This document shows positions 24,801 to 49,532 of a DNA stretch of 64,000 nucleotides, piece by piece; position 1 is the first letter of the stretch; each line of letters starts with the position of its first letter. Location: the NCBI GenBank assembly GCA_030295235.1, contig AP026123.1, forward strand, positions 1,984,001 to 2,048,000, in the 5' to 3' direction. Source of the DNA: Fistulifera solaris. Its lineage: Eukaryota; Bacillariophyta; Bacillariophyceae; Naviculales; Stauroneidaceae. Position numbers and translations under genes: made by a program. The notes under the pieces are model-generated. The model was not told the DNA's origin, made no database searches, and saw only the letters and a list, made by a program, of their open reading frames with translations.

Positions 24801-27800
24801 ATCGGTTCCTACCGTCACACCCAGTTCTGGACCAAGCTCGGTTCCTAGCTCTACGCCTACGACGACTCCAAGTGGAGAGCCCAGCAGTTCTCCAACGGGC
24901 ACTCCCAGCGTTATCCCGTCTGCCGGACCAACAGCAAGTCCGTCGGTGCAGCCTTCTGGCTCCCCTAGCGAGAACCCCACGGCATCCCCCCACTGCTGAA
25001 GGCGAGAAGTCTCCAAGTGAAGTTCCAAGTTCGTCTCCGACCGAAAGTCCGGCTCCTAGTGGAACCCCGACTGCTTCTCCCAGTGGATCCCCGTCTGGTG
25101 TACCGACTGGTTCCCCGTCGTTGGTTCCTTCTGGCTCGCCGAGTATCAATCCCAGTTCGTCGCCTTCCGCGTCGCCCAGCTCTATTCCTAGTACTGGACC
25201 GAGCAGTGCACCGAGCGTCACACCTAGTGCTGTCCCGTCTTCTACACCCAGTATTGTGCCATCCGGATCGCCAAGTGCTGTTCCGAGCACCACACCGAGC
25301 GTAACTCCGTCAGCTGTACCAACTTCAGTTCCAAGTGGCACGCCGTCGGGAACTCCGAGCTCTACACCGAGCAGCACTCCAAGTGCCGTGCCGTCTTCAA
25401 CTCCCAGCGGAGTTCCCAGCTCCTCGCCAAGTGTGACTCCCAGCTCCTCGCCAAGTGACTCACCGTCATCAGTTCCCTCTGCTAGCCCAAGTTCGGATCC
25501 GAGCGTTGCGCCTAGCGGAACACCGACCACGTCCCCAAGTTCGAAGCCCAGTTCGGTGCCGACGTCAGTTCCGAGCGGAACCCCCAGTTCGTCGCCCAGC
25601 GCTATCCCTTCATCGGTTCCAACGACGACTCCAAGCGGAACCCCGACTTCGACACCATCGACCACGCCCAGTATCATTCCGTCGGCGGTGCCATCATCGG
25701 TTCCTACCGTCACACCCAGTTCTGGACCAAGCTCGGTTCCTAGCTCTACGCCTACGACGACTCCAAGTGGAGAGCCCAGCAGCTCTCCAACGGGCACTCC
25801 CAGCGTTATCCCGTCTGCCGGACCAACAGCAAGTCCGTCGGTGCAGCCTACTGGCTCACCCTCGGTGAGTCCAAGCTCAGTTCCGTCTTCCCTGCCTACA
25901 TTCCTCTCGGAAAGCATTTGCGTGCAAGAAGCCAGACTTGACAGTAACGTCACCGCGCCGAATGGAAGTGGCATGTATACCGAAAATCCGATCAGTCTTG
26001 TCTCGCAACGCGGCTCGACTGTTTCGTTTGTTGTGAATCAGAACTGGGGTACAGATTCGATTCATCAAATCACAGTCATGTATAAATCCGCACATGATGG
26101 AATGACTTGCTCGGAAAATTGGGGAGTCTCTTCCGAGACTTCGGAGTACACAGCACGCTGTGTTGATGGAGTTACTGAAGTCGCCGTTTTTGTTAGCGAC
26201 AATTCTTTCTCAGGAATTCCTGACATTTCTACTCAGCTTCCTGAGATATGCAATGTGCATTCTCCCGTGGGCTTCCAGGTATCAATGTTCGTCTTTACTC
26301 TCCCGTGCGACACGTCATTGGAAGACTTCTGTGTAGTGCTGTGCCCTGACAGCGAAATGCCCAGTGTTCAGCCGAGTTCCATTCCTTCTGCGTCTCCCAC
26401 TGCTCAAGGCGAAAAGGCTCCCAGCGAGGTCCCAAGCACAACGCCTACTGAGAGCCCTGCTCCAAGTGGTTCGCCGACTGTTGCTCCCAGTGGGTCCCCG
26501 TCTGGTGTGCCCACTGTTTCCCCGTCTTCTGGACCGTCTGGTGTGCCAAGTGTTACCCCCACTTCGAGCCCCTCTGGTCTACCCAGTTCAATTCCTACTG
26601 CTGGACCCAGCGGTGCACCCAGTGTCACACCTAGTGCTATCCCGTCTTCTACACCCAGTATTGTGCCGTCTGGAGCTCCCAGCTCGTCACCAAGCTCTGT
26701 CCCTAGCTCCACCCCCAGCGCTGTACCATCAGCCGTCCCAAGCTCAGGTCCCAGTTCATCTCCAAGTGCTAGTCCGTCGGTCTCGCCTTCCACAGGCCCT
26801 TCAGCGACACCCACCGTTTCTCCTAGTGGATCACCTTCGTCGTCTCCCAGTGTTTCGCCAAGTGGAATCCCCTCCTCTAGCCCAAGCGGGGTACCGAGTG
26901 GATCTCCAAGCTCGGAGCCCAGTTCTTCGCCGTCTTCGGTACCCAGCGCTGGTCCTTCCAGCTCACCAAGTGGGTCGCCGAGTTCCAGCCCAAGTTCTGT
27001 TCCAAGCTCAATCCCCTCTGGTGTCCCAAGTGGAGTTCCGAGTTCGACGCCTAGCACGATGCCAAGCTCAAATCCAAGTGGATCCCCAAGCTCTACACCG
27101 TCTGGTATTCCCAGCTCGACTCCAAGCAGTAGTCCAAGTGTCACTCCATCAGCGGTGCCATCACCAGTTCCTACCGTCACACCCAGTTCAGGACCAAGCT
27201 CGGTTCCTAGCTCTACGCCTACGACGACTCCAAGTGGAGAGCCCAGCAGTTCTCCAACGGGCACTCCCAGCGTTATCCCGTCTGCCGGACCAACAGCAAG
27301 TCCGTCGGTGCAGCCTTCTGGCTCCCCTAGCGAGAACCCCACGGCATCCCCCCACTGCTGAAGGCGAGAAGTCTCCAAGTGAAGTTCCAAGTTCGTCTCC
27401 GACCGAAAGTCCGGCTCCTAGTGGAACCCCGACTGCTTCTCCCAGTGGATCCCCGTCTGGTGTACCGACTGGTTCCCCGTCGTTGGTTCCTTCTGGCTCG
27501 CCGAGTATCAATCCCAGTTCGTCGCCTTCCGCGTCGCCCAGCTCTATTCCTAGTACTGGACCGAGCAGTGCACCGAGCGTCACACCTAGTGCTGTCCCGT
27601 CTTCTACACCCAGTATTGTGCCATCCGGATCGCCAAGTGCTGTTCCGAGCACCACACCGAGCGTAACTCCGTCCGCTGTACCAACAGCCGTACCGAGCTC
27701 GAGACCCAGCGCATCTCCAAGTGCTTCTCCGTCGGCATCGCCCTCTACAACGCCTTCGTCGTCTCCCAGTGTTTCGCCAAGTGGAATCCCCTCCTCTAGC

Positions 27801-30800
27801 CCAAGCGGGGTCCCGAGTGGATCTCCAAGCTCGGAGCCCAGTTCTTCGCCGTCTTCGGTACCCAGCGCTGGTCCTTCCAGCTCACCAAGTGGGTCGCCGA
27901 GTTCCAGCCCAAGTTCTGTTCCAAGCTCAATCCCCTCTGGTGTCCCAAGTGGAGTTCCGAGTTCGACGCCTAGCACGATGCCAAGCTCAAATCCAAGTGG
28001 ATCCCCAAGCTCTACACCGTCTGGTATTCCCAGCTCGACTCCAAGCTCAAGTCCAAGCGGTGAACCCAGTTCTGCTCCGAGCGAACAACCCAGCATCACT
28101 CCTAGTGAATTTCCAAGCGCGTACCCAAGCGAGGTTCCTAGTGTTGAGCCCTCGGGCGCCCCGTCGATCAAGATTTGCGAGGAGTATGAGCGAATAACTT
28201 TCAACGAGGATGGTTACGGTAATCCAGTTAGCGCAGGATCATTCGTCTCGCTTCAATGGAAAAATCACGGATTCAGACTCTACGCCAAAGAATTATCTGA
28301 AGGTACAGGCGGATACATGGAAAATGGCTGGCCTCGGCTATTCGACACGCTCCAGCCTGGTAACGCTGTTGCTGGTACTCCCGGACTTGCTGGTGATTTT
28401 GGCAATGTCTTGATTGTGCAACATCAGAACCCTAAAGGTCCTAAAAACTGGCAGGCAAATGAAAATGGAGGAGTGATTGTCTTCGACTTCGCTTTGGCCC
28501 CTCGAGGAGAGATTGAGGATATTGGATTGCACAACGTCGTCAAGGATGTCAAGATTCGCGTCACGGACGCAAAGGGTTTGACCACCGATTTCATTGTTGC
28601 TGCTCAAGGAGAGAACAAATCAGTTACCCAGAGACTCAATGCATTTGATGTAAGCAAAATCGAAGTTTTCATGGAGGGACCGAGTGCGGTTACAGCCCTT
28701 GGAATATGCTATGACCTCGATGGAGCTCCGAGCACCAAGGTCCCCGAAAATTTATGGCCCACTGAACAGCCTAGTGTCCAACCGAGTCAGAGCCCCGCTC
28801 CAAGCTCTCAACCCTCTAGAAGTTCTCAGCCGAGTGCCTTTCCATCTGCTAGTCCCACTGCGGAAGGCGAGAAGTCTCCGAGTGAAGTTCCCAGTTCTTC
28901 CCCGACGGAGAGTCCGGCACCAAGCAGTTCTCCAAGCACTACACCCAGTACTAAACCAAGCACGTCTCCGAGTGTATCCCCGAGTGGATCTCCGAGCTCT
29001 GTCCCGAGTCAACACCCTAGTTCGGATCCCAGTTCTGCTCCGAGTGTAACGCCCAGTACTGCTCCTTCTTCAGTCCCATCTGTAGCACCGAGTGGAGAAC
29101 CAAGCTCTAGCCCGAGTTCTGTTCCCAGCTCCAGTCCCAGCTCAACACCAAGTTCTGCCCCTAGCTCCTTGCCAAGTTCCACACCAAGCTCAAGTCCAAG
29201 CGGAACCCCGAGCTCTTCACCCAGCTCTGCTCCGTCTTCGAGTCCCAGCTCTACGCCGAGCTCAGTGCCTAGCTCTGCTCCGAGCAGTTCACCGAGCGCA
29301 ACACCGAGCTCTTCGCCGAGTTCCAGCCCAAGTTCGGCACCCAGCTCCAGCCCGAGTTCCAGTCCTAGTTCGGCTCCAAGCTCTGAGCCAAGTGCGAGTC
29401 CGAGTGTAACTCCTTCTTCGGCACCGAGTGTTCAACCGTCTTCTGCTCCCAGCGTTGAGCCGAGCAGCACGCCGAGTGTGACCCCAAGCTCAACACCAAG
29501 CAGTGTTCCGAGCGTGACACCAAGCGCTTCGCCATCTTCGACTCCTTCGTCGACTCCAAGTGTAAGCCCGTCGACTGAACCTAGTGCTTCTCCTTCGACT
29601 ACTCCAAGTGGAAGTCCAAGCATTGCGCCGTCGGCTACACCGAGTCAAGAACCGAGCTCGTCGCCAAGTGCTACACCATCGGTTGCTCCTAGCGCGGGTC
29701 CGTCGTCGAGTCCCAGTGTCAGTCCATCTGCTGCTCCAAGCGTGTCTCCTAGTGCCGGACCCACTCCGGAAGGCGAGAAGGCTCCGAGTGAAGTTCCCAG
29801 TTCTTCTCCCACGGATAGTCCTGCACCGAGTGGAGCGCCCAGCTCGAAACCCAGTGGCAGTCCAAGCTCTACACCAAGCGTCAGCCCCAGCGTTGAGCCA
29901 AGTTCAACTCCAAGCGTTTCGCCAAGCAGCAAACCCAGTTCTACTCCTAGTTCAAACCCCAGCGAGGTGCCAAGTACCAACCCAAGCGTAAGCCCAAGCA
30001 GCAGTCCAAGTTCTTCGCCGAGTTCCGTCCCTAGTAATGAGCCAAGCTCCAGTCCGAGTTCGTCACCAAGCTCCACACCAAGTGTCGTACCGAGCTCCTC
30101 CCCGAGTTCAACACCGAGTACAAGCCCTAGTGCGGTCCCCAGTACCTCACCGAGTTCCACACCGAGCTCAAGTCCAAGCGTGGCTCCAAGCTCTTCACCC
30201 AGCTCTGCTCCGTCTTCGAGTCCCAGCTCTACGCCGAGCTCAATGCCTAGCTCTGCTCCAAGCAGTTCACCGAGCGCAGCACCGAGCTCTTCGCCGAGTT
30301 CCAGCCCAAGTTCGGCACCCAGCTCCGGCCCGAGTTCCAGTCCTAGTTCGGCTCCAAGCTCTGAGCCAAGTGCGAGTCCGAGTGTAACTCCTTCTTCGGC
30401 ACCGAGTGTTCAGCCGTCTTCTGCTCCCAGCGTTGAGCCGAGCAGCACGCCGAGTGTGACCCCAAGCTCAACACCAAGCAGTGTTCCGAGCGTGACACCA
30501 AGCGCTTCGCCATCTTCGACTCCTTCGTCGACTCCAAGTGTAAGCCCGTCGACTGAACCTAGTGCTTCTCCTTCGACTACTCCAAGTGGAAGTCCAAGCA
30601 TTGCGCCGTCGGCTACACCGAGTCAAGCACCGAGCTCGTCGCCAAGTGCTACACCATCGGTTGCTCCTAGCGCGGGTCCGTCGTCGAGTCCCAGTATCAG
30701 TCCATCTGCTGCGCCAAGCGTGTCTCCCAGTGCTGTTCCAACACCTGAAGGCGAGAAGGCTCCGAGTGAAGTTCCCAGTTCTTCTCCCACGGATAGTCCT

Positions 30801-33800
30801 GCACCGAGTGGAGCGCCCAGCTCGAAACCCAGTGGCAGTCCAAGCTCTACACCAAGCGTCAGCCCCAGCGTTGAGCCAAGTTCAACTCCAAGCGTTTCGC
30901 CAAGCAGCAAACCCAGTTCTACTCCTAGTTCAAACCCCAGCGAGGTGCCAAGTACCAACCCAAGCGTAAGCCCAAGCAGCAGTCCAAGTTCTTCGCCGAG
31001 TTCCGTCCCTAGTAATGAGCCAAGCTCCAGTCCGAGTTCGTCACCAAGCTCCACACCAAGTGTCGTACCGAGCTCCTCCCCGAGTTCAACACCGAGTACA
31101 AGCCCTAGTGCGGTCCCCAGTACCTCACCGAGTTCCACACCGAGCTCAAGTCCAAGCGTGGCTCCAAGCTCTTCACCCAGCTCTGCTCCGTCTTCGAGTC
31201 CCAGCTCTACGCCGAGCTCAATGCCTAGCTCTGCTCCAAGCAGTTCACCGAGCGCAGCACCGAGCTCTTCGCCGAGTTCCAGCCCAAGTTCGGCACCCAG
31301 CTCCGGCCCGAGTTCCAGTCCTAGTTCGGCTCCAAGCTCTGAGCCAAGTGCAAGTCCGAGTGTAACTCCTTCTTCGGCACCGAGTGTTCAGCCGTCTTCT
31401 GCTCCCAGCGTTGAGCCGAGCAGCACGCCGAGTGTGACCCCAAGCTCAACACCAAGCAGTGTTCCGAGCGTGACACCAAGCGCTTCGCCATCTTCGACTC
31501 CTTCGTCGACTCCAAGTGTAAGCCCGTCGACTGAACCCAGTGCTTCTCCTTCGACTACTCCAAGTGGAAGTCCAAGCATTGCGCCGTCGGCTACACCGAG
31601 TCAAGAACCGAGCTCGTCGCCAAGTGCTACACCATCGGTTGCTCCTAGCGCGGGTCCGTCGTCGAGTCCCAGTGTCAGTCCATCTGCTGCGCCAAGCGTG
31701 TCTCCCAGTGCTGTTCCAACACCTGAAGGCGAGAAGGCTCCGAGTGAAGTTCCCAGTTCTTCTCCCACGGATAGTCCTGCACCGAGTGGAGCGCCCAGCT
31801 CGAAACCCAGTGGCAGTCCAAGCTCTACACCAAGCGTCAGCCCCAGCGTTGAGCCAAGTTCAACTCCAAGCGTTTCGCCAAGCAGCAAACCCAGCTCGAA
31901 TCCTAGCGAAGAGCCAAGCTCCGAGCCAAGTTCTGCTCCGAGTGTAACACCCAGTACTGCTCCTTCTTCGGTCCCATCTGTGGCACCGAGTGGAGAACCA
32001 AGCTCTAGCCCGAGTTCTGCTCCTAGCTCCAGTCCAAGTGAAACACCAAGTTCTTCTCCTAGTTCCACGCCCAGCTCTTCGCCCAGCTCAAGTCCAAGCG
32101 TGGCTCCAAGCTCTTCACCCAGCTCTGCTCCGTCTTCGAGTCCCAGCTCTACGCCGAGCTCAATGCCTAGCTCTGCTCCAAGCAGTTCACCGAGCGCAGC
32201 ACCGAGCTCTTCGCCGAGTTCCAGCCCAAGTTCGGCACCCAGCTCCGGCCCGAGTTCCAGTCCTAGTTCGGCTCCAAGCTCTGAGCCAAGTGCGAGTCCG
32301 AGTGTAACTCCTTCTTCGGCACCGAGTGTTCAACCGTCTTCTGCTCCCAGCGTTGAGCCGAGCAGCACGCCGAGTGTGACCCCAAGCTCAACACCAAGCA
32401 GTGTTCCGAGCGTGACACCAAGCGCTTCGCCATCTTCGACTCCTTCGTCGACTCCAAGTGTAAGCCCGTCGACTGAACCTAGTGCTTCTCCTTCGACTAC
32501 TCCAAGTGGAAGTCCAAGCATTGCGCCGTCGGCTACACCGAGTCAAGCACCGAGCTCGTCGCCAAGTGCTACACCATCGGTTGCTCCTAGCGCGGGTCCG
32601 TCGTCGAGTCCCAGTATCAGTCCATCTGCTGCGCCAAGCGTGTCTCCCAGTGCTGTTCCAACACCTGAAGGCGAGAAGGCTCCGAGTGAAGTTCCCAGTT
32701 CTTCTCCCACGGATAGTCCTGCACCGAGTGGAGCTCCAAGCGAAGCACCAAGCAGTGCCCCTAGCGAGTCCCCTAGTGTAGCTCCAAGTGAATCACCTAG
32801 TGAAATGCCGAGCTCAATGCCAAGTGAAGTTCCAAGCAGTTCGCCAAGTGAATCACCGAGTGTTTCGCCGAGTATTGCCCCGAGCACGGAGCCTAGTTAT
32901 GTTCCAAGCACTGAGCCAAGTGCAAAACCAAGTTCAGCTCCATCCTTGACCCCAAGTTCTTCACCTAGCTCATATCCTAGTGCGACACCAAGCTCTTCGC
33001 CGAGCTCATCACCGAGCTCTTCTCCTAGTTCAGAGCCCAGCTCTGCTCCGTCTTCTAGCCCAAGTTCTTCCCCTTCTTCGAGCCCCAGCTCGGCTCCTAG
33101 TGCGGGACCAAGTTCTACTCCAAGCTCTTCTCCGAGCGTGGCTCCGAGCTCTTCTCCGAGTTCCAGTCCAAGTTCGGCACCCAGCTCCTCACCGAGTTCC
33201 AGTCCAAGTTCGGCCCCGAGCTCTGAACCGAGTTCCAGTCCTAGCACGTCTCCTTCGTCGGCTCCTAGTGTTGAGCCATCTTCTGCACCCAGTGTTGAGC
33301 CAAGCAGCGCACCGAGTGTGACACCTAGTTCGATGCCAAGCGGTGCGCCCAGCGTGACACCAAGCGCTTCTCCTTCTTCGACTCCTTCGTCGAGTCCCAG
33401 TTCCTCGCCGTCGTCTGAACCCAGTTCTTCTCCTTCGTCTACTCCAAGTGGAAGTCCAAGCATTGCGCCGTCGGCTACACCGAGTCAGGAACCGAGCTCT
33501 TCGCCGAGTGCTACACCATCTGTGTCTCCCAGTTCCAAACCGTCGTCGAGTCCCAGTGTCAGTCCGTCTGCTGCTCCAAGCGTGTCTCCTAGTGCCGGAC
33601 CCACTCCGGAAGGCGAGAAGGCTCCGAGTGAAGTTCCCAGTTCTTCTCCCACGGATAGTCCTGCACCGAGTGGAGCTCCAAGCTCTTCCCCAAGTGTTGG
33701 ACCGAGCGCGTCTCCTAGCTCTGTACCCAGTCTAATGCCGAGCGCCTCACCAAGCGCCACTCCAAGCGGATCTCCCAGCTCGACTCCGAGCGAAGAGCCA

Positions 33801-36800
33801 AGCTCTGAGCCTAGTTCTGCTCCGAGTGTAACACCCAGTGCAGCTCCTTCTTCGGTACCATCGGTCACACCAAGCGTTGAGCCGAGTTCGAGTCCCAGCT
33901 CTGCTCCTAGCTCCAGTCCAAGTGAAACACCAAGTTCTTCTCCTAGTTCCATGCCCAGCTCAGCGCCAAGTTTAAGTCCAAGCGTAGCTCCAAGCTCTTC
34001 GCCCAGCTCTGCTCCGTCTTCGAGCCCAAGCTCCGCCCCGAGCTCGATGCCTAGCTCTGCTCCAAGCAGTTCACCGAGCGCGGCACCGAGCTCTTCGCCG
34101 AGTTCCAGCCCAAGTTCGGCACCCAGCTCCGGCCCGAGTTCCAGTCCTAGTTCGGCTCCAAGCTCTGAACCGAGTTCTAGTCCTAGCGCATCTCCTTCGT
34201 TGGCTCCTAGTGGCGAGCCTTCGTCGGCACCCAGCGTCGAGCCAAGCAGTGCACCCAGCGTGACACCAAGCGCTTCTCCTTCTTCGACTCCTTCGTCGAC
34301 TCCAAGTGTAAGCCCGTCGACTGAACCCAGTTCTTCTCCTTCGTCTACTCCAAGTGGAAGTCCAAGCATTGCGCCGTCGGCTACACCGAGTCAGGAACCC
34401 AGCTCGTCGCCGAGTGCTACACCATCGGTTGCTCCTAGCGCGGGTCCGTCGTCGAGTCCCAGTGTCAGTCCATCTGCTGCGCCAAGCGTGTCTCCTAGCG
34501 CCGGACCCACTCCGGAAGGCGAGAAGGCTCCGAGTGAAGTTCCCAGTTCTTCTCCCACGGATAGTCCTGCACCGAGTGGAGCTCCAAGCGAAGCACCAAG
34601 CAGTGCCCCTAGCGAGTCCCCTAGTGTAGCTCCAAGTGAATCACCTAGTGAAATGCCGAGCTCAATGCCAAGTGAAGTTCCAAGCAGTTCGCCAAGTGAA
34701 TCACCGAGTGTTTCGCCGAGTATTGCCCCGAGCACGGAGCCTAGTTATGTTCCAAGCACTGAGCCAAGTGCAAAACCAAGTTCAGCTCCATCCTTGACCC
34801 CAAGTTCTTCACCTAGCTCATATCCTAGTGCGACACCAAGCTCTTCGCCGAGCTCATCGCCGAGCTCTGCTCCTAGTTCAGAGCCCAGCTCTGCTCCGTC
34901 TTCTAGCCCAAGTTCTTCCCCTTCTTCGAGCCCCAGCTCGGCTCCTAGTGCGGGACCAAGTTCTACTCCAAGCTCTTCTCCGAGCGTGGCTCCGAGCTCT
35001 TCTCCGAGTTCCAGTCCAAGTTCCACTCCAAGCTCGTCGCCAAGTGTCGAACCGTCTTCTGCACCCAGTGTTGAGCCGAGCAACATGCCGAGTGTGACAC
35101 CAAGTTCGTCACCGAGCAGTGCACCCAGCGTGACACCAAGCGCTTCTCCTTCTTCGACTCCTTCGTCGAGTCCCAGTTCCTCGCCGTCGTCTGAACCCAG
35201 TTCTTCTCCTTCGTCTACTCCAAGTGGAAGTCCAAGCATTGCGCCGTCGGCTACACCGAGTCAGGAACCCAGCTCGTCGCCGAGTGCTACACCATCGGTT
35301 GCTCCTAGCGCGGGTCCGTCGTCGAGTCCCAGTGTCAGTCCATCTGCTGCGCCAAGCGTGTCTCCTAGCGCCGGACCCACTCCGGAAGGCGAGAAGGCTC
35401 CGAGTGAAGTTCCCAGTTCTTCTCCCACGGATAGTCCTGCACCTAGCGGAGCTCCCAGCTCGAAACCCAGTGGCAGTCCCAGCTCTTCACCAAGCATTAG
35501 CCCCAGCGTTGAGCCAAGCTCATCTCCAAGCATCTCACCAAGTGGATCTCCCAGCTCGACTCCGAGCGAAGAGCCGAGCTCTGAGCCCAGTTCTGCTCCG
35601 AGTGTAACACCCAGTTCTGTACCATCTTCGGTCCCATCTGTGGCACCGAGTGGAGAACCAAGCTCTAGCCCGAGTTCTGCTCCTAGCTCCAGTCCAAGTG
35701 AGTCACCGAGCTCTGGTCCAAGCTCCTCCCCCAGCGAGACACCTAGTCTAGCTCCTTCTTCCAGTCCAAGTTCGGGACCCAGCTCAGAACCGAGTTCTAG
35801 TCCCAGCACGTCTCCTTCGTCGGCTCCTAGTGTTGAGCCATCTTCTGCACCCAGTGTTGAGCCAAGCAGCGCACCGAGTGTGACACCTAGTTCGATGCCA
35901 AGCGGTGCGCCCAGCGTGACACCAAGCGCTTCTCCTTCTTCGACTCCTTCGTCGAGTCCCAGTTCCTCGCCGTCGTCTGAACCCAGTTCTTCTCCTTCGT
36001 CTACTCCAAGTGGAAGTCCAAGCATTGCGCCGTCGGCTTCACCGAGTCAAGAACCGAGCTCGTCACCAAGTGCTACACCATCAGTTCCTCCAAGCGCGGG
36101 TCCGTCGTCGAGTCCAAGTGTCAGTCCGTCTGCTTCTCCAAGCGTGTCTCCTAGTGCCGGACCCACTCCGGAAGGTGAGAAGGCTCCGAGTGAAGTACCC
36201 AGTTCCTCCCCCACGGATAGTCCTGCACCGAGCGGAGCTCCTAGCTCCTCACCCAGTTCAAATCCTAGTTTGGAACCCAGCTCGGAACCAAGCTCTAGCC
36301 CGAGCTCTTCTCCGTCATCGGCACCAAGTGAAGCGCCAAGCGAGTCACCTAGCGAAGGTCCTAGCGCATCGCCGAGCGAGATGCCGAGTGAAATGCCCAG
36401 TTCTGCACCAAGCAGTTCCCCGAGCGAGTCACCAAGCGCAGCGCCAAGTCAAGAACCAAGCTCAGAACCCAGTTCCACTCCAAGCTCTTCTCCGAGCGCG
36501 GTGCCCTCTTCGGTCCCATCTGTGACACCAAGTGCTGAACCGAGTTCGAGCCCCAGTGCGGCGCCTAGTTCAACTCCAAGCGCAACACCAAGTTCCGCTC
36601 CAAGCTCGTCGCCAAGTGTCGAACCGTCTTCTGCACCCAGTGTAGAGCCGAGCAACATGCCGAGTGTGACACCAAGTTCGTCACCGAGCAGTGCACCCAG
36701 CGTGACACCAAGCGCTTCTCCTTCTTCGACTCCTTCGTCGAGTCCCAGTTCCTCGCCGTCGTCTGAACCCAGTTCTTCTCCTTCGTCTACTCCAAGTGGA

Positions 36801-39800
36801 AGTCCAAGCATTGCGCCGTCGGCTACACCGAGTCAAGAACCGAGCTCTTCGCCGAGTGCTACACCATCTGTGTCTCCCAGTTCCAAACCGTCGTCGAGTC
36901 CCAGTGTCAGTCCGTCTGCTGCTCCAAGCGTGTCTCCTAGTGCCGGACCCACTCCGGAAGGCGAGAAGGCTCCGAGTGAAGTTCCCAGTTCTTCTCCCAC
37001 GGATAGTCCTGCACCGAGTGGAGCTCCAAGCTCTTCCCCAAGTGTTGGACCGAGCGCGTCTCCTAGCTCTGTACCCAGTCTAATGCCGAGCGCCTCACCA
37101 AGCGCCACTCCAAGCGGATCTCCCAGCTCGACTCCGAGCGAAGAGCCAAGCTCTGAGCCTAGTTCTGCTCCGAGTGTAACACCCAGTGCAGCTCCTTCTT
37201 CGGTACCATCGGTCACACCAAGCGTTGAGCCGAGTTCGAGTCCCAGCTCTGCTCCTAGCTCCAGTCCAAGTGAAACACCAAGCTCCGGCCCAAGCTCTTC
37301 CCCGAGTGAAACACCTAGCTTAGCTCCTTCTTCCAGTCCAAGTTCGGGACCCAGCTCAGAACCGAGTTCTAGTCCCAGCACTTCTCCGTCGTCGGCTCCT
37401 AGTGTTGAGCCATCTTCTGCACCCACTGTTGAACCAAGCAGTGTTCCGAGCGTGACACCAAGCGCTTCTCCTTCTTCGACTCCTTCGTCGAGTCCCAGTT
37501 CCTCGCCGTCGTCTGAACCCAGTTCTTCTCCTTCGTCTACTCCAAGTGGAAGTCCAAGCATTGCTCCGTCGGCTACACCGAGTCAGGAACCGAGCTCGTC
37601 ACCAAGTGCTACACCATCTGTGTCTCCCAGTTCCAAACCGTCGTCGAGTCCAAGTGTCAGTCCGTCTGCTGCTCCAAGCGTGTCTCCTAGCGCCGGACCC
37701 ACTCCGGAAGGCGAGAAGGCTCCAAGTGAAGTTCCCAGTTCTTCTCCCACGGATAGTCCTGCACCAAGTGGAGCTCCTAGCGAGTCTCCGAGTGAAGGTC
37801 CTAGTTCCTCACCCAGTGAAGTTCCTAGCGTGATGCCAAGCTCTTCTCCAAGTGTTTCACCAAGTGGCGCCCCCAGCTCTGCCCCGAGTCAAGAACCTAG
37901 CTCGGAACCCAGTTCTGCTCCTAGTTTGAGTCCAAGTTCCGTTCCAAGCTCGACTCCTAGTGTAACGCCAAGCTCCACGCCAAGCGTCTCACCTAGTGCA
38001 GCACCGAGTGGAGTGCCTAGCTCTTCGCCCAGCTCTGTTCCCAGTTCCACACCGAGCGTAGCACCGAGTGGCTCGCCTTCTTCGGTACCCAGCACCGAGC
38101 CCTCATCTTCGCCCAGTTTGGAACCTAGCAGTGTTCCAAGTGTGACACCAAGTGCTGCACCTTCGTCGGTACCTTCGGCGATCCCTAGCTCAGTTCCTTC
38201 TTCAGTTCCAAGCATTTCGCCTTCCTCTGAACCAAGTGTAGAACCTAGCGTTGCACCGTCGTCTACACCGAGTCAGGAACCCAGCTTGTCACCAAGTGCA
38301 ACCCCATCAGTTGCTCCAAGCGCCAGGCCTTCTTCCAGCCCTAGTGTGAGTCCGTCTGCTGCTCCAAGCGTGTCTCCTAGTGCCGGACCCACTCCGGAAG
38401 GCGAGAAGGCTCCGAGTGAAGTTCCCAGTTCTTCTCCCACGGATAGTCCTGCACCGAGTGGAGCTCCGAGCGAGTCTCCGAGTGAAGGTCCTAGTTCCTC
38501 ACCCAGTTCCGGTCCTAGTTCAATGCCAAGCGCATCGCCTAGCATTTCGCCAAGTGTTTCTCCCAGCTCGACTCCTAGTCAAGAACCTAGCTCGGAACCC
38601 ACTACTTCGCCTAGCGTAGCACCCACTACTTCACCGTCTGCCGTTCCGTCATTGGCACCAACTGGTGAACCAAGTTCTTCTCCGACGTCTTCACCAACCT
38701 CGTCTCCAAGTACGTCCCCCAGTGACACGCCATCAGGTGTCCCCAGCAGTGCACCGTCTGCTGTCCCAACACTTTCACCGACGAACAAGCCATCATCACA
38801 GCCATCCGATGAACCTAGCTCAACGCCCACGAATGCGCCAACAAGTTCGCCTACAGCATCTCCGTCAATTGACAGTGATGCGCCAAGTGAAGCACCGAGT
38901 GAATCGCCGAGTGAAGCTCCAAGTTCTGCTCCTAGCGAGTTTGACGAAGACGCCACTAACTTCCCAACGGAGCTTCCCAGCGAAGCGCCAGTTCTGTCGT
39001 TCGAATCTGGTGGACTGTCTGGTAACCAAGGAGCTCCATCTGCTGAGCCGTCCGCGTCTCCAAGCGCCACTCCCTGGACAGCAGCTGAACCTATTTGCGA
39101 GATGAAACCTAAGCTGGAAGATAGTTCGTTAGGACTTGACGGGCCCGGTCACCCAGACGATGACGCCGTGCCGGCCCGTGTCGTTTCCATGAGTTCCACC
39201 GCGGCTCAAGTTCGTTTCGCCATTGACAACGTCTGGAAAGCCACGGCAGGCAATATTGACAGCATCCGCGTGTTGTACTCCTCCGCGGACCAAGGAATGG
39301 TTTGCTCGAAATATTCAGGTATCCAGAGCTCTACCCCTGAAATGGAGGCCGTGTGTATCGACGGCAAAGCTGAGGTTGCCGTTTTCGTGAGCGATTCCTC
39401 ATTTGCTGGAGTTCAGGATGTTTCCAGCCTCGTGCCAAATGCATGCATCGATACCGATGGGGGAGTAGCGGGAATGAGTGGAAATACCGTCATGTTCGTA
39501 TTCTACGTACCGTGTGATGCTAATGATGAGTCGTGGTGTGTACCAGGCACGATGTGCCCGGATTCCCAAGCTCCCTCTGCCGGCCCATCCCCGATTCCCT
39601 CTGCTGCGCCTTCCCCGTCGCCGTCCGCAGGCCCAACGTGGACCGCTGCTGAGTCGATTTGCGTCATGCAGGCCAAAATGGATGAAAGCTCATTGAGTTC
39701 CGACGGTCCGGGCCACCCTGAAGATAACGCAGTCCCAGCCCGTGTGATTAGCATGAGTTCAGCTGCAGATGAAGTGAAGTTTGCAATCGATAATGTGTGG

Positions 39801-41939
39801 GGAAGCTCCTCAATTGACAAAGTCCGCGTCGTGTACGAGTCCACAAGCAAGGGAATGGTTTGCTCAAGGTACTCGAACGTCGAGAACTCGACTCCTGAGA
39901 TTTCGGCCAAATGCACGAATGGAATTGCCGAAGTTGCTGCTTTTGTCAGTGATTCTTCTTTCATTGGTGTACAGGACGTATCCAATCTCTTACCAAGTGC
40001 TTGTTCCAAGATCGTCGCCGACGGTGACGTTAGCGACTGGGATTTGGATGGAAGTCATTCGGCCCCTATCTACAACAGCGGCAACCCGAACCCGTCCTTT
40101 AGCGGCTTCCTCGAAGCTGGTAAGGCTTACACCGAGTACGACTGTCATACTCAAACTCTTTGTGTGTTGGTGATGGTCAAGGATGGCCTTGTCATTGATA
40201 GATCCATGGACAATATCTGGATCAAGGATTACAAATCAGGTTTGACAGGAAATAAATACCCAACCAAAGGTGGAGGAATCCAATTCGTAGAAAACGCCAA
40301 CGGCGCAGCCGTTGGTTGGGAAGGCTTGTTTCGATGTGTCGGGTGTCTCTACTGGTGGATTGCGTGACTCAATCGAGATCCACACGAACTCGCAAGGAAG
40401 AACACTTTCAACAGGCAAACAAGGAACAGCTCCACTTTTGTCTCTTGACCTTCAGTGTTCCAACCAATCGAATCAGAACATGATCATGTTTGTATTCAAG
40501 GTTCCTTGCGATCAAGATGATACGTCTTGGTGTGTCCCTGGCACGTTGTGCCCTGATTCCAGTGTTGCCGGTGCTATTAGCACCGGATCTGCTTCTTTGG
40601 TTGCTTCCACGGAGTCTACTGCCTGCAAACAGGAAGCTCGCCTTGACAGTGATTCAACGGAAGATGGAAAGGGGGTATGTACCGATCAAACCCCATTGTC
40701 ATCACTGAACAACAGGGCACAAGCGTTACTTTCCAAGTTGACCAAACCTGGGATATCTCGGAAGACGATTCGCTAGACTCGTTAGAAGTATACTACGAAA
40801 CGATCAGTGAAACAATGGAGTGTGTTCAAAGTTCTTCATCCTCTGTACCCACCTTTACTGCCAAATGTTCTAGCGATGTTGCCGAGGTCGCTCTTTTCGT
40901 TCGCGACAGCTCTTTCAAAGGTCTCTCCGACGTTTCTTCTACAGTTCCAACAGCATGCTCAGGTGCATTGAGCCCCGGTGCAACAACAGGAGATCTCGTT
41001 ATGTTCTTCTTCACTATCCCTTGCAATCCAACTGATACAAGCTTCTGCAACGCAGCCGCTGAGTCAACCAATGAAGTAACTACCCTTCAGGCTCAAGACG
41101 ATAAAGAAGATGAAATTATTATCACAACGAATGAAATCACTTGTGGATCTATTCACGAAGAAACTTTCGAGAAGCCAGGTGATGCTTTGTCCTGGGAAGG
41201 TGGTTTTGATTCTAATATGGACGTTTTCGGTAACTTCCTTGGTCGTTTTGGAAGCATGAATCCGGAAGCGCAGAAAATATTCCAGATGCCGGCAGGTGCC
41301 AGCTCAGCTACAATCAGCTTCAAGCTTTACGATATCAATGGCGACACAGCTGGCGACAACCTTCAATTAGGATTCCAGAATTCATGGGTCGACATCGATC
41401 TCAGCAATGCAGCCGAGCAATATCACCAAGATGAATCAGTTACCCTCAGGGACCGCAGTTACGATAGAGTTGCTTTTGTTGTTACGCCCATTGAAAACGT
41501 CTACGTAATCGAGATCGAGATTCCGAAGCGTTGGTGGGCGAACAATGATAACAAGCTACCCTTCGGATTCAGAGTGAAGTCTTCAAATGATATCAATGAC
41601 GATAGCTATGGTATCGATGACTTCACTGTACAGGTTGACTGCGGCAGTCAGAGACGCGCGATGGATGGTTCTGAACAGCCCCCTGCTTCTGAACCAAGCG
41701 AAGAGGGCGAAGACGGCTCGTACTATTGCAAAGCCTCGGATTACCCGTGCGGTGACGGCATGGACATGGTTCATGTTTGTCATTACTCAACTCGCCTGGG
41801 ATATCAGACATTCTGTATTCCTGAAGAAGATTCTGAAGTCCTTCGCTTCTACGGCAATGATTACTGTGGACCATGCGCAGGGGGGTTTCAAAGGGTCTAT
41901 GGACTAAGAAAGTTGATGATAGCAGATTATAAAAAGTAA
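18888..41939 (+). CDS. Giant secreted mucin-like PTS-rich protein (about 7,680 codons)
   Basis: ATG 18888 begins a clear signal peptide (MKVFKANISILFIALVPLVA). The order is: a Cys-containing N-terminal region (to about 19790); KLPTFxxSEPSASPSG repeats (19800-20745); a first Cys module (about 20785-21180); then PSxx tetrapeptide tracts (S/T/V/G/A/E in xx) over about 17 kb, broken by a second Cys module, a beta-sandwich-type domain (28165-28725) and, at the end, three more Cys modules, a DGDxxDW domain and a C-terminal beta domain plus Cys-rich tail ending YKK. The marker EGEK(S/A)PSEVPSSSPT recurs 17 times. The frame changes near 19800, 21360, 21555, 22030, 24988, 27350, 40320 and 40673; several are at G or C runs, and the protein pattern continues across each, so I treat it as one gene. 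Dense Ser/Thr predicts heavy O-glycosylation. It resembles diatom cell-surface and adhesive mucin-like proteins by architecture; the function is inferred. Confidence 0.85.
19800..20745 (+). repeat. Tandem 24-28-residue repeats (GGAKLPTFAASEPSASPSG type)
   Basis: About 12-13 copies of a 72- or 84-nt unit, each encoding GGAKLPTFAASEPSASPSG followed by KEKEE or a variant. Longer units carry an extra SASPSG. The central copies are nearly identical at the DNA level (about 20150-20640), indicating recent tandem expansion. The first copies are more diverged (KVPTFTVPEPSASP). Unlike the rest of the giant protein this tract is rich in lysine and glutamate. Confidence 0.9.
20785..21180 (+). other. Cys module 1 of the giant protein
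   Basis: A globular stretch within the PTS tracts, from CEDRVAG to PCDC. It shows the pattern shared by the later modules: SVSFTVNQQF, then a middle cysteine (VCDIQ), YTAMCDD with ASINIYVHDESLKG, CAYTIQLPCDC at the end. It is the most diverged of the five copies. No known domain was recognised; predicted all-beta. Confidence 0.75.
22970..27370 (+). repeat. Near-identical 0.9-kb coding blocks (PTS tract, first array)
   Basis: A segment beginning near the word cggttcctac recurs at 22991, 23885, 24803 and 25698, with a shorter copy from about 27166. The copies are almost identical in DNA for hundreds of bases, so they are recent duplicates or homogenised by gene conversion. Spacings are 894, 918 and 895 nt. 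The 918-nt copy carries extra PSxx units near 24536. Part of the array (25001-25400) is also repeated at 27363-27680. Confidence 0.88.
25915..26360 (+). other. Cys module 2 of the giant protein
   Basis: From CVQEARLDSN to CPDS. Key features are GMYTENPISLVSQRGSTVSF, VVNQNWG, MTCSENWG, YTARCVDGVTEVAVFVSDNS, MFVFTLPCD and FCVVLCPD. It is the same fold pattern as modules 3-5 at the C-terminus, although it sits between two PTS arrays. Confidence 0.82.
28165..28725 (+). other. Beta-sandwich (choice-of-anchor-like) domain of the giant protein
   Basis: About 185 residues starting KICEEYERITFNEDGYGNP and ending VTALGICYD. Segments FRLYAKELSE, GNVLIVQHQNP, GGVIVFDFAL, VTDAKGLTTDFIV and SAVTALGICYD follow the pattern of bacterial extracellular domains in which GNVLII, TFDF and a final SGAVTALDFC occur (choice-of-anchor/PEP-CTERM neighbours). 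The role is probably extracellular binding; this is family resemblance seen by eye. Confidence 0.6.
29772..38990 (+). repeat. EGEK-marked PSxx blocks (second array)
   Basis: Eleven copies of the marker GEKAPSEVPSSSPTDSPAPS start (ggcgagaag or ggtgagaag) at 29772, 30750, 31728, 32670, 33612, 34518, 35388, 36174, 36960, 37710 and 38400. Between markers lie only PSxx tetrapeptides. Block lengths fall from 978 to 690 nt and every one equals a multiple of 12 plus 6. The blocks at 29.8-32.7 kb are nearly identical in DNA; the later ones are mosaics of shared segments. Confidence 0.9.
39094..39570 (+). other. Cys module 3 of the giant protein
   Basis: From CEMKPKLEDSS to CPDSQAPS. It contains DGPGHPDDDAVPARVVSMSS, VRFAIDNVWK, MVCSKYSG, AVCIDGKAEVAVFVSDSS, VMFVFYVPCD and SWCVPGTMCPDS. 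It is very similar to module 4, which follows after a short Pro/Ser linker. Confidence 0.85.
39655..40560 (+). other. Cys module 4, split by an inserted domain
   Basis: The first part (39655-40017, CVMQAKMDESS to NLLPSAC) matches module 3. The expected last part (MFVFKVPCDQDDTSWCVPG then CPDS) appears only at about 40480-40560. Between them lies a different domain (about 40010-40430) starting ADGDVSDWDLDGSHSAPIYN. The frame changes once near 40320. Confidence 0.8.
40010..40430 (+). other. DGDxxDW-type domain nested in Cys module 4
   Basis: About 135 residues: VADGDVSDWDLDGS, FSGFLEAGKAYTEYDCHTQT, LCVLVMVKDGLVIDRSMDNI, WIKDYKSG, ACFDVSG then DSIEIHTNSQGRTL. An N-terminal DGxxxDW followed by a beta-rich body with a VMVKDG-like strand is reminiscent of CBM9-like extracellular domains, but I cannot confirm the family. 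Confidence 0.55.
40618..41060 (+). other. Cys module 5 of the giant protein
   Basis: From ACKQEARLDSDSTEDGKG to TSFCNAA. It includes GMYRSNPIVITEQQGTSVTF, QVDQTWD, MECVQSSS, TAKCSSDVAEVALFVRDSS and VMFFFTIPCNPTDTSFC. It is closest to module 2 (GMYTENPI...). A G5 run at 40671-40675 breaks the frame; three Gs would restore the module-2-like reading. Confidence 0.82.
41135..41890 (+). other. C-terminal beta domain and Cys-rich tail of the giant protein
   Basis: From CGSIHEETFEKPGDALSWEG: NFLGRFGSMNPEAQKIF, ATISFKLYDINGDTAGDNLQ, VDIDLSN, VYVIEIEIPKRWW and DSYGIDDFTVQVDC form a jelly-roll-like domain of a type found in bacterial and diatom surface proteins. A Cys-rich tail follows (YCKASDYPCGDGMDMVHVCH, FCIPEEDSEVLRFY, DYCGPC). 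No GPI signal or membrane helix follows, so the protein appears to be secreted. Confidence 0.65.
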
Positions 41940-46372: not shown

Positions 46373-49300
46373 TCATTCAAGTGACAAATTTAACAAGAAA
46401 GAGAGGATACATGCAATCAGCGCACCGTTGTGCTTATGAGGAAAGGCACTGGACTCTACGGCTGATCCAATCGGTGCACCTTGCAAAGCATTGGGGTTAT
46501 TTGCTTCCTGCACGTCAGACGCATTGAACCGACTTGTCAACAACTTTAAAGGGTGGCTAACGCGGCCGGATACTTTCGGAATAGTCACGTGAATTCGAAC
46601 CACATTGTTGTCGAACGAAATTTCGGGGAAGACGCGTCCGGGATTGACTTGAACCTCCAAAACGTAATCGCCGGCGTCCAGATCCGTTACATCGATCCAA
46701 AAGCAATCGAGCGACCACCCGTACCTATCGAGCCAGCCCTTTTGAATACCTTGGAAACCACAATCGTACTTCTTGTCACAGGCAACATTCACTCCATCAA
46801 AATGGCGCGCCGTGTCTTCCATACAGTATGCATATTTTCCGCCATGAAGAGCAACCTTTTTCCGTCGGATTGAAAGAGTGTGTATTCAGCAAAGTTTCTG
46901 AAATGGTAGTGCTGATGGCAGGGACCGTACTCAAAGAGATCTGGGCGCTCCTTGGGTTCGGGGAAAGAAATATCAGCTTTGCCTTGATTCAGCACCGAAG
47001 ATGTGAAGCGCAACAAGCGTCGCAAACCTGGTTTTTAAACGCATCCTTCCATCAGAGAGCAACTACTTTCAGGGATCATGACGTCCTGCAGAAATGTCTC
47101 TTCGAGCATGTGCTCAACGACGATCACTAAATCACCCAGGTTTTCAAGGGAGTCGTAGCACTGACAGTCCGAAGCGCAAATCTGAGAGTTTCCACAGCCT
47201 TCACAGACCGGGTTCATGTGATCGCAAATTTCGAACTTCTCACAGCTGGACATGGGTATGGATCCTGTGATTTTGTCGGGTGCGATAGATGCGCCAAGAC
47301 AGAAGAGGCCGTCATTGCACGTTCCGCAAGAACCGCCACACCCATCCTCACCGCATTCACGATCTTTACATTGAGGCTGGCAGTTTGCGGGAAAGCAGCG
47401 ATTGTAGCTGACATGGCATTCTTCGTTCTCCGCACACGATCCGCAGCTACCACCGCAACCATCAGGTCCACAAAATTGCCATCGCACAGCGGGATGCCAT
47501 TGTTGACAAATGTCGCGCTCAAATCAAATTGGCCGCTGTCGGTAGTAGAATAGCCATCCACCATCAAAAAGTCAATGCCTTCGTCGACTTCGCCTGTGAT
47601 ACGTGAGCCCATGTCTCCTGGAGGAGTACCGTCGTCATTGCAGTTGACGATGTGATCTTCCGGGTGCTCGTCGGGAAGGCCCTTACTCTCGCAAGTGCCC
47701 TATTGAAACGAATAATGAGTGATGTTTTGCCGTGGCACATTCTTGAGACAATATACTCTTACCTTCATGAGCTGCAAGACAGTGTCGTACCCGGCAACAC
47801 GAATATCATATCTTTATCAAAATATAAATTCCAAAGATTAGCATGCATTTGAGACGTGCGTTTATCAGGAAACAGCATCCGCCTTCCTACGTACCCATAA
47901 CGCACACCAACTGCCACTTCAAAAGTAAAAACCACTTCGGGACTAGAAGTGAGCGTGTTGCAAGAAGGAGTGTCAAAATGAATCGACTGTGATGTATCAC
48001 CAAAGGACGTGATCGTCACGCGTTCAGATGCATTAATCACAGGAACTACGTCTCCGTTTCCAAGATTGAAGGGATCCGTGCAAGACCCGGAAGCAACTCC
48101 CATGACACAGCTATACATTGAACATCCCGTTCCGCTGCTGCAAGTACCACAAAAGCCGCCGCAACCGTCTTCCCCGCATTCCTTACCCCCCGCAATTCGG
48201 AACACACTCCTTTAAACACACCGGGGCGTTTTCTGGATCCCTCGCAACGTGCGAGCATCGAAACGAGCTGTGCTCACAACTGGACTCAGTGGTTTCGTCA
48301 CCATCGTCACAAATGTTTATTCCCAAAGAGCATTCGCCCACAACCGTCGCAACTTGCCACGCGGAACAGAAGTCGTTGTTTCCGCACAAAAACTCTGCCC
48401 GAACATTTTGCCTAAAAGCGAGAAAAATGAATAAGGGCCTTTATTATCGGGCAGAATTACCGTCCATTAGAGCGTCCATTAGGATTTTTCGTCTGTTCTC
48501 GTCCGGATAATAATTTTCGAGCGTTCACGTGAACAGGCCCAACGTTCACGTGAACGAATTCGTTCATTTCGTTTTTTGATGTCCATTATGACGTTTTGGC
48601 GCCCAAAGGCGAAAAAACTCCACCCCTTCGCATTTTGTCGCGGTAACAAACATTTGTTTCACACTTCTTCTTTCGCACAAATACAAGTGAAACTATTCAA
48701 ATACAAGTCTAATTCATTCCATTATGACAGATAGTAACAAAGAAAACAGCGACTGTGACAGCGTGAACACCGCAATCCTCGAAGCGATTGCGAATGGCGA
48801 TATAATCATGTCGACAAAAGGCAACGTGTCGTCTGTTACCGCGACATCTCCCGTTGAAGTCGCGCTTCCTGCTCCAGCACCCCCGCGCCTCTTGCAACAA
48901 CCATTTCCGGCGGAATGTAAAGCATCGGGTCGCCAGTTGAATTGAAAGATTTCGTTTCGTCAATGACGATATTCTCTCCAAGAAGATGTACCAGATATTG
49001 AAATGACGAGTACGTCATATGATATCTGTTCGCGAAGCCAGAATCACGACATTCGTAAAGGTGTGTATTGAATATCTTTCGGGCGATGTGACGCTTTGGG
49101 TCTCGCCTCTTTGGTTGTCGCTGACGTCGTCGACGAAGTCTCCGCACCGCCAAAACATTCATTTGGATCTGCAGTTGAACTATTTGCAACAACACTAAGT
49201 CTTCCATTGTTTCAACAGGATGAGATATCAAGAAACAAATGAATGACCTGTTCTGGGCGACGAATGATTGATGAAATGATATAACGAATGAATGCTTTCG

Positions 49301-49532
49301 ATTGCAAAAAATGATGCCATTTTTCAAGGCATTGGTAAGGGAAAAAGAAGATTTATACTTAGCATCCTTTGATGTCGTAGAGATATTGCTCTAATGAACA
49401 CGTAACCAAAATGGACGCAACACCTTTCGGTAATATTGTCCGTTCATTTGGGTGTGTCCATTTTGAAATGAACGCTCTAATGGACAGTAAAAATTTCGAT
49501 AATATGAGGCCTAAGGCAATCGTTATCTTCAT
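46373..49532 (-). CDS. Lysyl-oxidase-like secreted protein, interrupted by a transposon in its signal peptide
   Basis: Codons 1-7 (ATG at 49532) lie on one side of a transposon and the rest at 48431 and below; together they read MKITIALFIFLAFRQNVRA, a signal peptide. Then come FLCGNNDFCSAW, Cys repeats (CGEDGCGGFCGTC, CGPDGCGGSCGSC, CGEDGCGGSCGTC), introns 47894-47812 and 47762-47700, and the catalytic domain. Visible there are RRLLRFTSSVLNQGKADI, the copper ligands in CHQHYH, the lysine in GGKYAYCMED and the tyrosine in DRYGWSLDCFW that form the LTQ cofactor in animal LOX, and NNVVRIHV. The C-terminus (HNGALIACILSFLLNLSLE) looks like a GPI signal. LOX oxidises lysine side chains for cross-linking. 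Frames slip at homopolymers near 48186, 47472 and 46857, and there is one in-frame TAA at 47035-47037. About 640 aa without the insertion. Confidence 0.85.
48435..48480 (+). repeat. Left terminal inverted repeat of the Harbinger-like element
   Basis: Begins GGGCCTTTATTATCG and ends AGCGTCCATT. It pairs with 49466-49511 on the opposite strand with a few mismatches and small gaps. Confidence 0.85.
48724..48945 (+). CDS. Small open frame inside the transposon
   Basis: ATG 48724 opens 73 codons (MTDSNKENSDCDSVNTAILE ... ASGRQLN). It partly overlaps the transposase remnant on the other strand. It may be the start of the element's second, accessory gene or a chance frame. No family was recognised. 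Confidence 0.25.
   Translation: MTDSNKENSDCDSVNTAILEAIANGDIIMSTKGNVSSVTATSPVEVALPAPAPPRLLQQPFPAECKASGRQLN
48836..49207 (-). CDS. Truncated Harbinger-like transposase N-terminus
   Basis: From ATG 49207 the frame reads 123 aa: a basic region (RRLRRRRQRQPKRRDPKRHI), then FANRYHMTYSSFQYLVHLL and YIPPEMVV. The F-x-x-R-Y/F-x-M-S/T-x-x-S-F-x-x-L pattern is typical of the helix-turn-helix region at the start of Harbinger transposases. The DDE catalytic domain is missing; after PPEMVV the sequence changes to RGAGVLEQEARLQREM, consistent with an internal deletion. No function is expected on its own. Confidence 0.6.
   Translation of the reverse strand: MEDLVLLQIVQLQIQMNVLAVRRLRRRRQRQPKRRDPKRHIARKIFNTHLYECRDSGFANRYHMTYSSFQYLVHLLGENIVIDETKSFNSTGDPMLYIPPEMVVARGAGVLEQEARLQREMSR
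49466..49511 (-). repeat. Right terminal inverted repeat of the Harbinger-like element
   Basis: Reverse complement begins GGCCTCATATTATCG and continues TTACTGTCCATTAGAGCG. It matches the left end; the TAA duplication follows directly. Confidence 0.85.

Follow-up and report, generated by a model that had tools for sequence, protein, structure and literature searches.

A non-autonomous PIF/Harbinger-type element in the signal-peptide codons of one homoeolog of a lysyl-oxidase-like gene in Fistulifera solaris

In the stretch of Fistulifera solaris DNA analysed here (the window, 64,000 nucleotides of the contig labelled C3), a lysyl-oxidase-like gene is interrupted within its signal-peptide codons by a short DNA transposon. 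Very probably, a deletion derivative mobilised in trans inserted at codon 7 and broke this homoeolog, with its counterpart on contig C4 presumably compensating. The element, its target site duplication, its relatives elsewhere in the genome, the empty site on C4 and the reading frames on both sides were all seen directly. The case is an ordinary, well-resolved transposon disruption of one duplicate gene.

In the proposed course of events, a short, internally deleted PIF/Harbinger element would have been moved in trans by a related transposase encoded in the genome. By cut-and-paste it would have entered the sole lysyl-oxidase-like gene of Fistulifera solaris, in one of the two homoeologs, at codon 7, which reads TTA on the coding strand and TAA on the other, and would have duplicated this TAA. 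The start codon, with the first seven codons of the signal peptide, would thereby be cut off from the region encoding the bulk of this secreted lysyl-oxidase-like enzyme, and the window copy would then be unable to make the secreted protein. On C4 the homoeolog retains the empty site and presumably supplies the function.

The coordinates of the features are listed in Table 1. The original prediction of a Harbinger-like transposon with inverted ends of about 46 bp between TAA duplications was borne out: the borders are as predicted and the duplication is perfect (TAA/TAA). The terminal inverted repeats (TIRs) are imperfect, about 46 bp each, and local alignment of the two 60-base ends of the element scores 39, whereas 2,887 control segments, equal in length and taken from the window, score 24 at most (0/2,887 reach 39). 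Inside the element, positions 263-396 match a longer relative on contig C28 at 74% at the DNA level, while the DDE_Tnp_4 part of the transposase (residues 235-392 of the C28 protein) is gone. As the first ORF and the transposase are represented only by their beginnings, the window element is a non-autonomous, internally deleted PIF/Harbinger-type derivative.

Table 1. Features of the interrupted lysyl-oxidase-like gene and of the element, in window positions
Feature	Position	Strand	Remark
Non-autonomous PIF/Harbinger-type element	48435..49511	.	1,077 bp
TAA target site duplication, left copy	48432..48434	.	
TAA target site duplication, right copy	49512..49514	.	present once in the C4 homoeolog
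5' terminal inverted repeat (GGGCC...)	48435..48480	+	4 genome matches to its first 36 bases
3' terminal inverted repeat (...GGCC)	49467..49511	-	4 genome matches within 3 mismatches
Remnant open frame (MTDSNKENSDCDSVNTA...)	48724..48945	+	looks by eye like the beginning of the first ORF in the C28 relative
Transposase N-terminal remnant	48872..49333	-	residues 10-165 of the 469-aa C28 transposase, 62% identity
Codons 1-7 of the lysyl-oxidase-like gene (MKITIAL), severed from the rest	49512..49532	-	
TAA stop from the element end	48441..48443	-	in frame with the gene body, two codons short of the far junction
Body of the lysyl-oxidase-like gene (FisN_20Hh279)	46376..48434	-	Cys-rich modules, LOX domain
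In-frame TAA early in the LOX region	47035..47037	-	lysine codon in the homoeolog

A search of the genome (51.7 Mb, 61 contigs) with the element as query gave 8 matches: the element itself, two full copies about 99% identical (on C11 and C38), and pieces on C10, C28 and C9. The first 36 bases of its 5' end occur exactly on C3, C10, C11 and C38. The C10 relative is 2,069 bp long, has the same TIRs and is the sole same-TIR relative carrying a transposase, which is split over two frames. All four elements with these TIRs are flanked by perfect 3-bp duplications (TAA, TAA, TTA and TTA). The C28 relative (L018:1856-5197) is 3,342 bp long, is flanked by TGA/TGA and contains an open 469-aa transposase; open frames for a second protein lie on the opposite strand to it, in which no Pfam domain, Myb-type or other, was found at an E-value of 0.01. 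Pfam PF13359 (DDE_Tnp_4) matches the C28 protein with an E-value of 2.5e-28, and the C10 and C9 frames, which are broken or shortened, with 7.9e-28 and 3.7e-24. The Harbinger-like assignment is supported by the 3-bp duplications, the TIRs and the DDE_Tnp_4 domain of the longer relatives, and can be refined to a non-autonomous member. The C28 Harbinger-like element is a candidate source of transposase. Since its intact transposase sits in an element whose TIRs differ from those of the window element, mobilisation by it is something we infer.

For the PIF/Harbinger superfamily, one paper (PMC2836001) describes a 3-bp duplication, a requirement for two proteins, precise excision and cross-mobilisation of related elements. 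The Fistulifera solaris family resembles Ping/mPing of rice, as portrayed in the same paper, in its TAA/TTA duplications, its TIRs, short copies that are internal deletions, and a longer relative with a DDE_Tnp_4 transposase and a second ORF. Unlike Ping/mPing, it is low-copy, with three short elements and one longer one found with these TIRs, and in the second ORF of the C28 relative no Myb domain was detected at the threshold given above; a second protein with a Myb-like domain is a feature of the superfamily. Class II Harbinger-like elements are also mentioned for the diatom Thalassiosira pseudonana in another paper (PMC2806351), a likeness at the level of element class. The present case documents a PIF/Harbinger family with recent mobility in Fistulifera solaris.

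The flanks of the element align to C4, the left one at 89% identity and the right one at 70-87%. C4 runs straight through the insertion site with a single TAA and without the element, and its gene reads MKITITLFLAFAFKRNVRAQLLCGNNDFC, with the signal peptide in frame. This agrees with the prediction that the insertion lies in signal-peptide codons. Likewise, when the element and one TAA are removed from the window, the minus strand reads MKITIALFIFLAFRQNVRAEFLCGNNDFC in frame from the ATG at 49532, as had been anticipated. A relative from Nitzschia inconspicua (P0003) also begins with a hydrophobic leader. The precise empty site on C4 is strong proof of insertion. An empty site had been proposed as a check in other strains and in a second haplotype; one was found, precise and with one TAA, but its carrier is the diverged homoeolog and not a demonstrated second allele. 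C12 and C39 contain regions corresponding to the flanks of the C11 and C38 copies, and no element was found there; all three short copies thus lack a counterpart at the homoeologous position. As the C11 and C38 flanks are diverged, what is seen at C12 and C39 is absence of the element, not a base-for-base empty site.

Among the three short copies, the window element carries 0 private substitutions, and the C11 and C38 copies carry 9 each, of which 3 and 2, respectively, recur in the C10 relative and may therefore be ancestral; these counts omit one-base gaps, and at four positions, three of which fall at A/T runs, a base is missing from the window copy. Equal clocks would give similar counts on all three branches, so the tally provides no date. 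The claim that the insertion is recent is nevertheless supported by the identical duplications, the lack of private substitutions and a coding sequence still under constraint, and the event is left undated. The same data bear on the idea that C4 carries an excision scar instead of a never-occupied site. In its favour, PIF/Harbinger elements usually excise precisely (PMC2836001). The idea needs an ancient insertion shared by both homoeologs, yet the window element has no private substitution while dS between the homoeologous genes is 0.36, and we regard it as extremely improbable.

With the element present, the start codon opens a chimeric frame of 57 codons that stops inside the element, and the gene body is preceded by an in-frame stop contributed by the element end (Table 1). 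The published protein FisN_20Hh279 starts at the first Met of the body downstream of the insertion, which suggests that the published assembly has the element too. An assembly artefact as the source of the element was rejected: three other same-TIR elements have perfect duplications of their own, and the published protein fits an interrupted gene. The FisN_20Hh279 model appears to be N-terminally truncated, as well as missing 27 residues of the conserved oxidase region.

It was also considered that the element might be spliced out as an intron, with an exonised TIR, so that the start codon and TIR sequence would form a new leader (MKITIALGLILSKFLLSIRA...), joined to the body at an AG near the far junction. 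Such a chimeric N-terminus retains a hydrophobic look, the junction is closely followed by a pyrimidine-rich AG, and 11 donor/acceptor combinations are in phase, with a second exon beginning at 48438, 48411, 48392 or 48390. Against this, all 11 donors score at most 4/8 against the consensus AGGTAAGT. The two introns modelled in the lysyl-oxidase-like gene are 83 and 63 bp long, less than a tenth of the element, the published protein begins downstream of it, and the spliced product would still be truncated by the TAA in the LOX region. Splicing of this kind is very unlikely.

A second candidate lesion is the in-frame TAA at 47035-47037, early in the LOX region. FisN_20Hh279 lacks the 27 residues around it, as if the predictor had put an intron around the stop, and the TAA is thus taken as real. 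The window copy is probably disabled twice, by the element and by a stop inside the oxidase domain. The claim that the element costs this allele its start and signal peptide therefore stands as far as the frames go, with the qualification that the stop is another likely cause of inactivation. A reversible switch can also be imagined: given the precise excision of PIF/Harbinger elements, cells within a single culture might hold both states of the signal-peptide site, with excision toggling secretion of this homoeolog. Hardly any weight can be given to it, and it would matter only in cells that lack or bypass the downstream TAA.

Three other frame breaks are found in the window gene: in a run of six C at 48186-48191, near 47472, and at 46857-46861. 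The first shifts the window frame relative to the homoeolog and precedes the start of the published protein; the other two are contradicted by that protein. The C4 gene as assembled has one frameshift in the LOX domain, at the short A run that also breaks the frame of the window copy (46857-46861); it is most likely an assembly error, on the basis that the published window-copy protein reads through there. The best 120 of 793 matches listed, and 14 listed separately, did not include a published protein for the C4 homoeolog. The other frameshifts of the window gene are doubtful as lesions and are at least partly assembly errors. Elsewhere in the region, too, the homoeologs differ in length by single bases within long open frames (4675, 15749 and 59995 are examples), which suggests indel errors in the assembly, and claims about frame made from it need care. 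Differences of this kind were seen at many places between window positions 4181-63403 and C4. The extra frameshifts as a sign of long decay were partly rejected, given the similar indels across the region and the two breaks contradicted by the published protein.

These lesions raise the alternative that the window copy was already a pseudogene and that the element landed in dead sequence. The in-frame TAA with its missing residues, the frame shift at the six-C run, and a dN/dS of 0.52 over the first 90 codons all speak for it. The overall dN/dS between the homoeologs is 0.15 (641 codons, 2 skipped). Window-specific and C4-specific replacements number 20:15 against P0002, 14:15 against P0003, 15:9 against P0005, 5:11 against P0006 and 10:14 against P0004, excluding sites where all three sequences differ (6, 37, 15, 20 and 24, respectively). 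No consistent excess of window-specific replacements was found against these five proteins. Together with the low overall dN/dS, this means that any decay of the window copy is recent, and the contradiction of two frame breaks by the published protein also counts against a gene dead beforehand. Insertion into an already dead copy is thus rather unlikely, though it has more in its favour than the other alternatives. About 120 bp of the LOX domain (46703-46822) are identical between C3 and C4, while the genes overall differ by more than 10%; homoeolog gene conversion or strong constraint are possible reasons.

The lysyl-oxidase-like identity of the gene, also predicted, is upheld by a match to Pfam PF01186 and by similarity to the human LOXL2 entry 5ze3 (E-value 1.6e-12). 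As in lysyl oxidases, a CHQHYH motif is present in both homoeologs, a Lys and a Tyr line up with the Lys of GHK and the Tyr of CWDMY in the 5ze3 sequence, and a WIDVTD block is shared. We take the CHQHYH histidines and the aligned Lys and Tyr to be the copper-binding and cofactor residues of lysyl oxidase. Unlike in animal lysyl oxidases, the LOX domain of this gene lies behind Cys-rich modules; animal lysyl-oxidase-like enzymes carry SRCR domains instead. The top protein match is FisN_20Hh279 itself, 100% identical over reading-frame blocks of 167 and 162 residues. A PF01186 search of the genome gave 4 matches, two halves each on C3 and C4, and thus found a single lysyl-oxidase gene in each subgenome. 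Fistulifera solaris is described as an allopolyploid with 42 homoeologous chromosome pairs (PMC5935921). One homoeolog of a once-per-subgenome gene has here been caught being lost, and the sister chromosome preserves the empty site.

The best 120 of the 793 matches listed include LOX homologs that cover most of the query: Nitzschia inconspicua has one (59% over 96%), as do myxobacteria, for example Stigmatella (42% over 91%). The Nitzschia inconspicua homolog contrasts with the absence of lysyl oxidase from diatoms stated in a 2018 paper (PMC6508830). Elsewhere in the window, positions 26337-40364 contain a 4,676-codon open frame of repeats, which aligns to the homoeolog in many registers.
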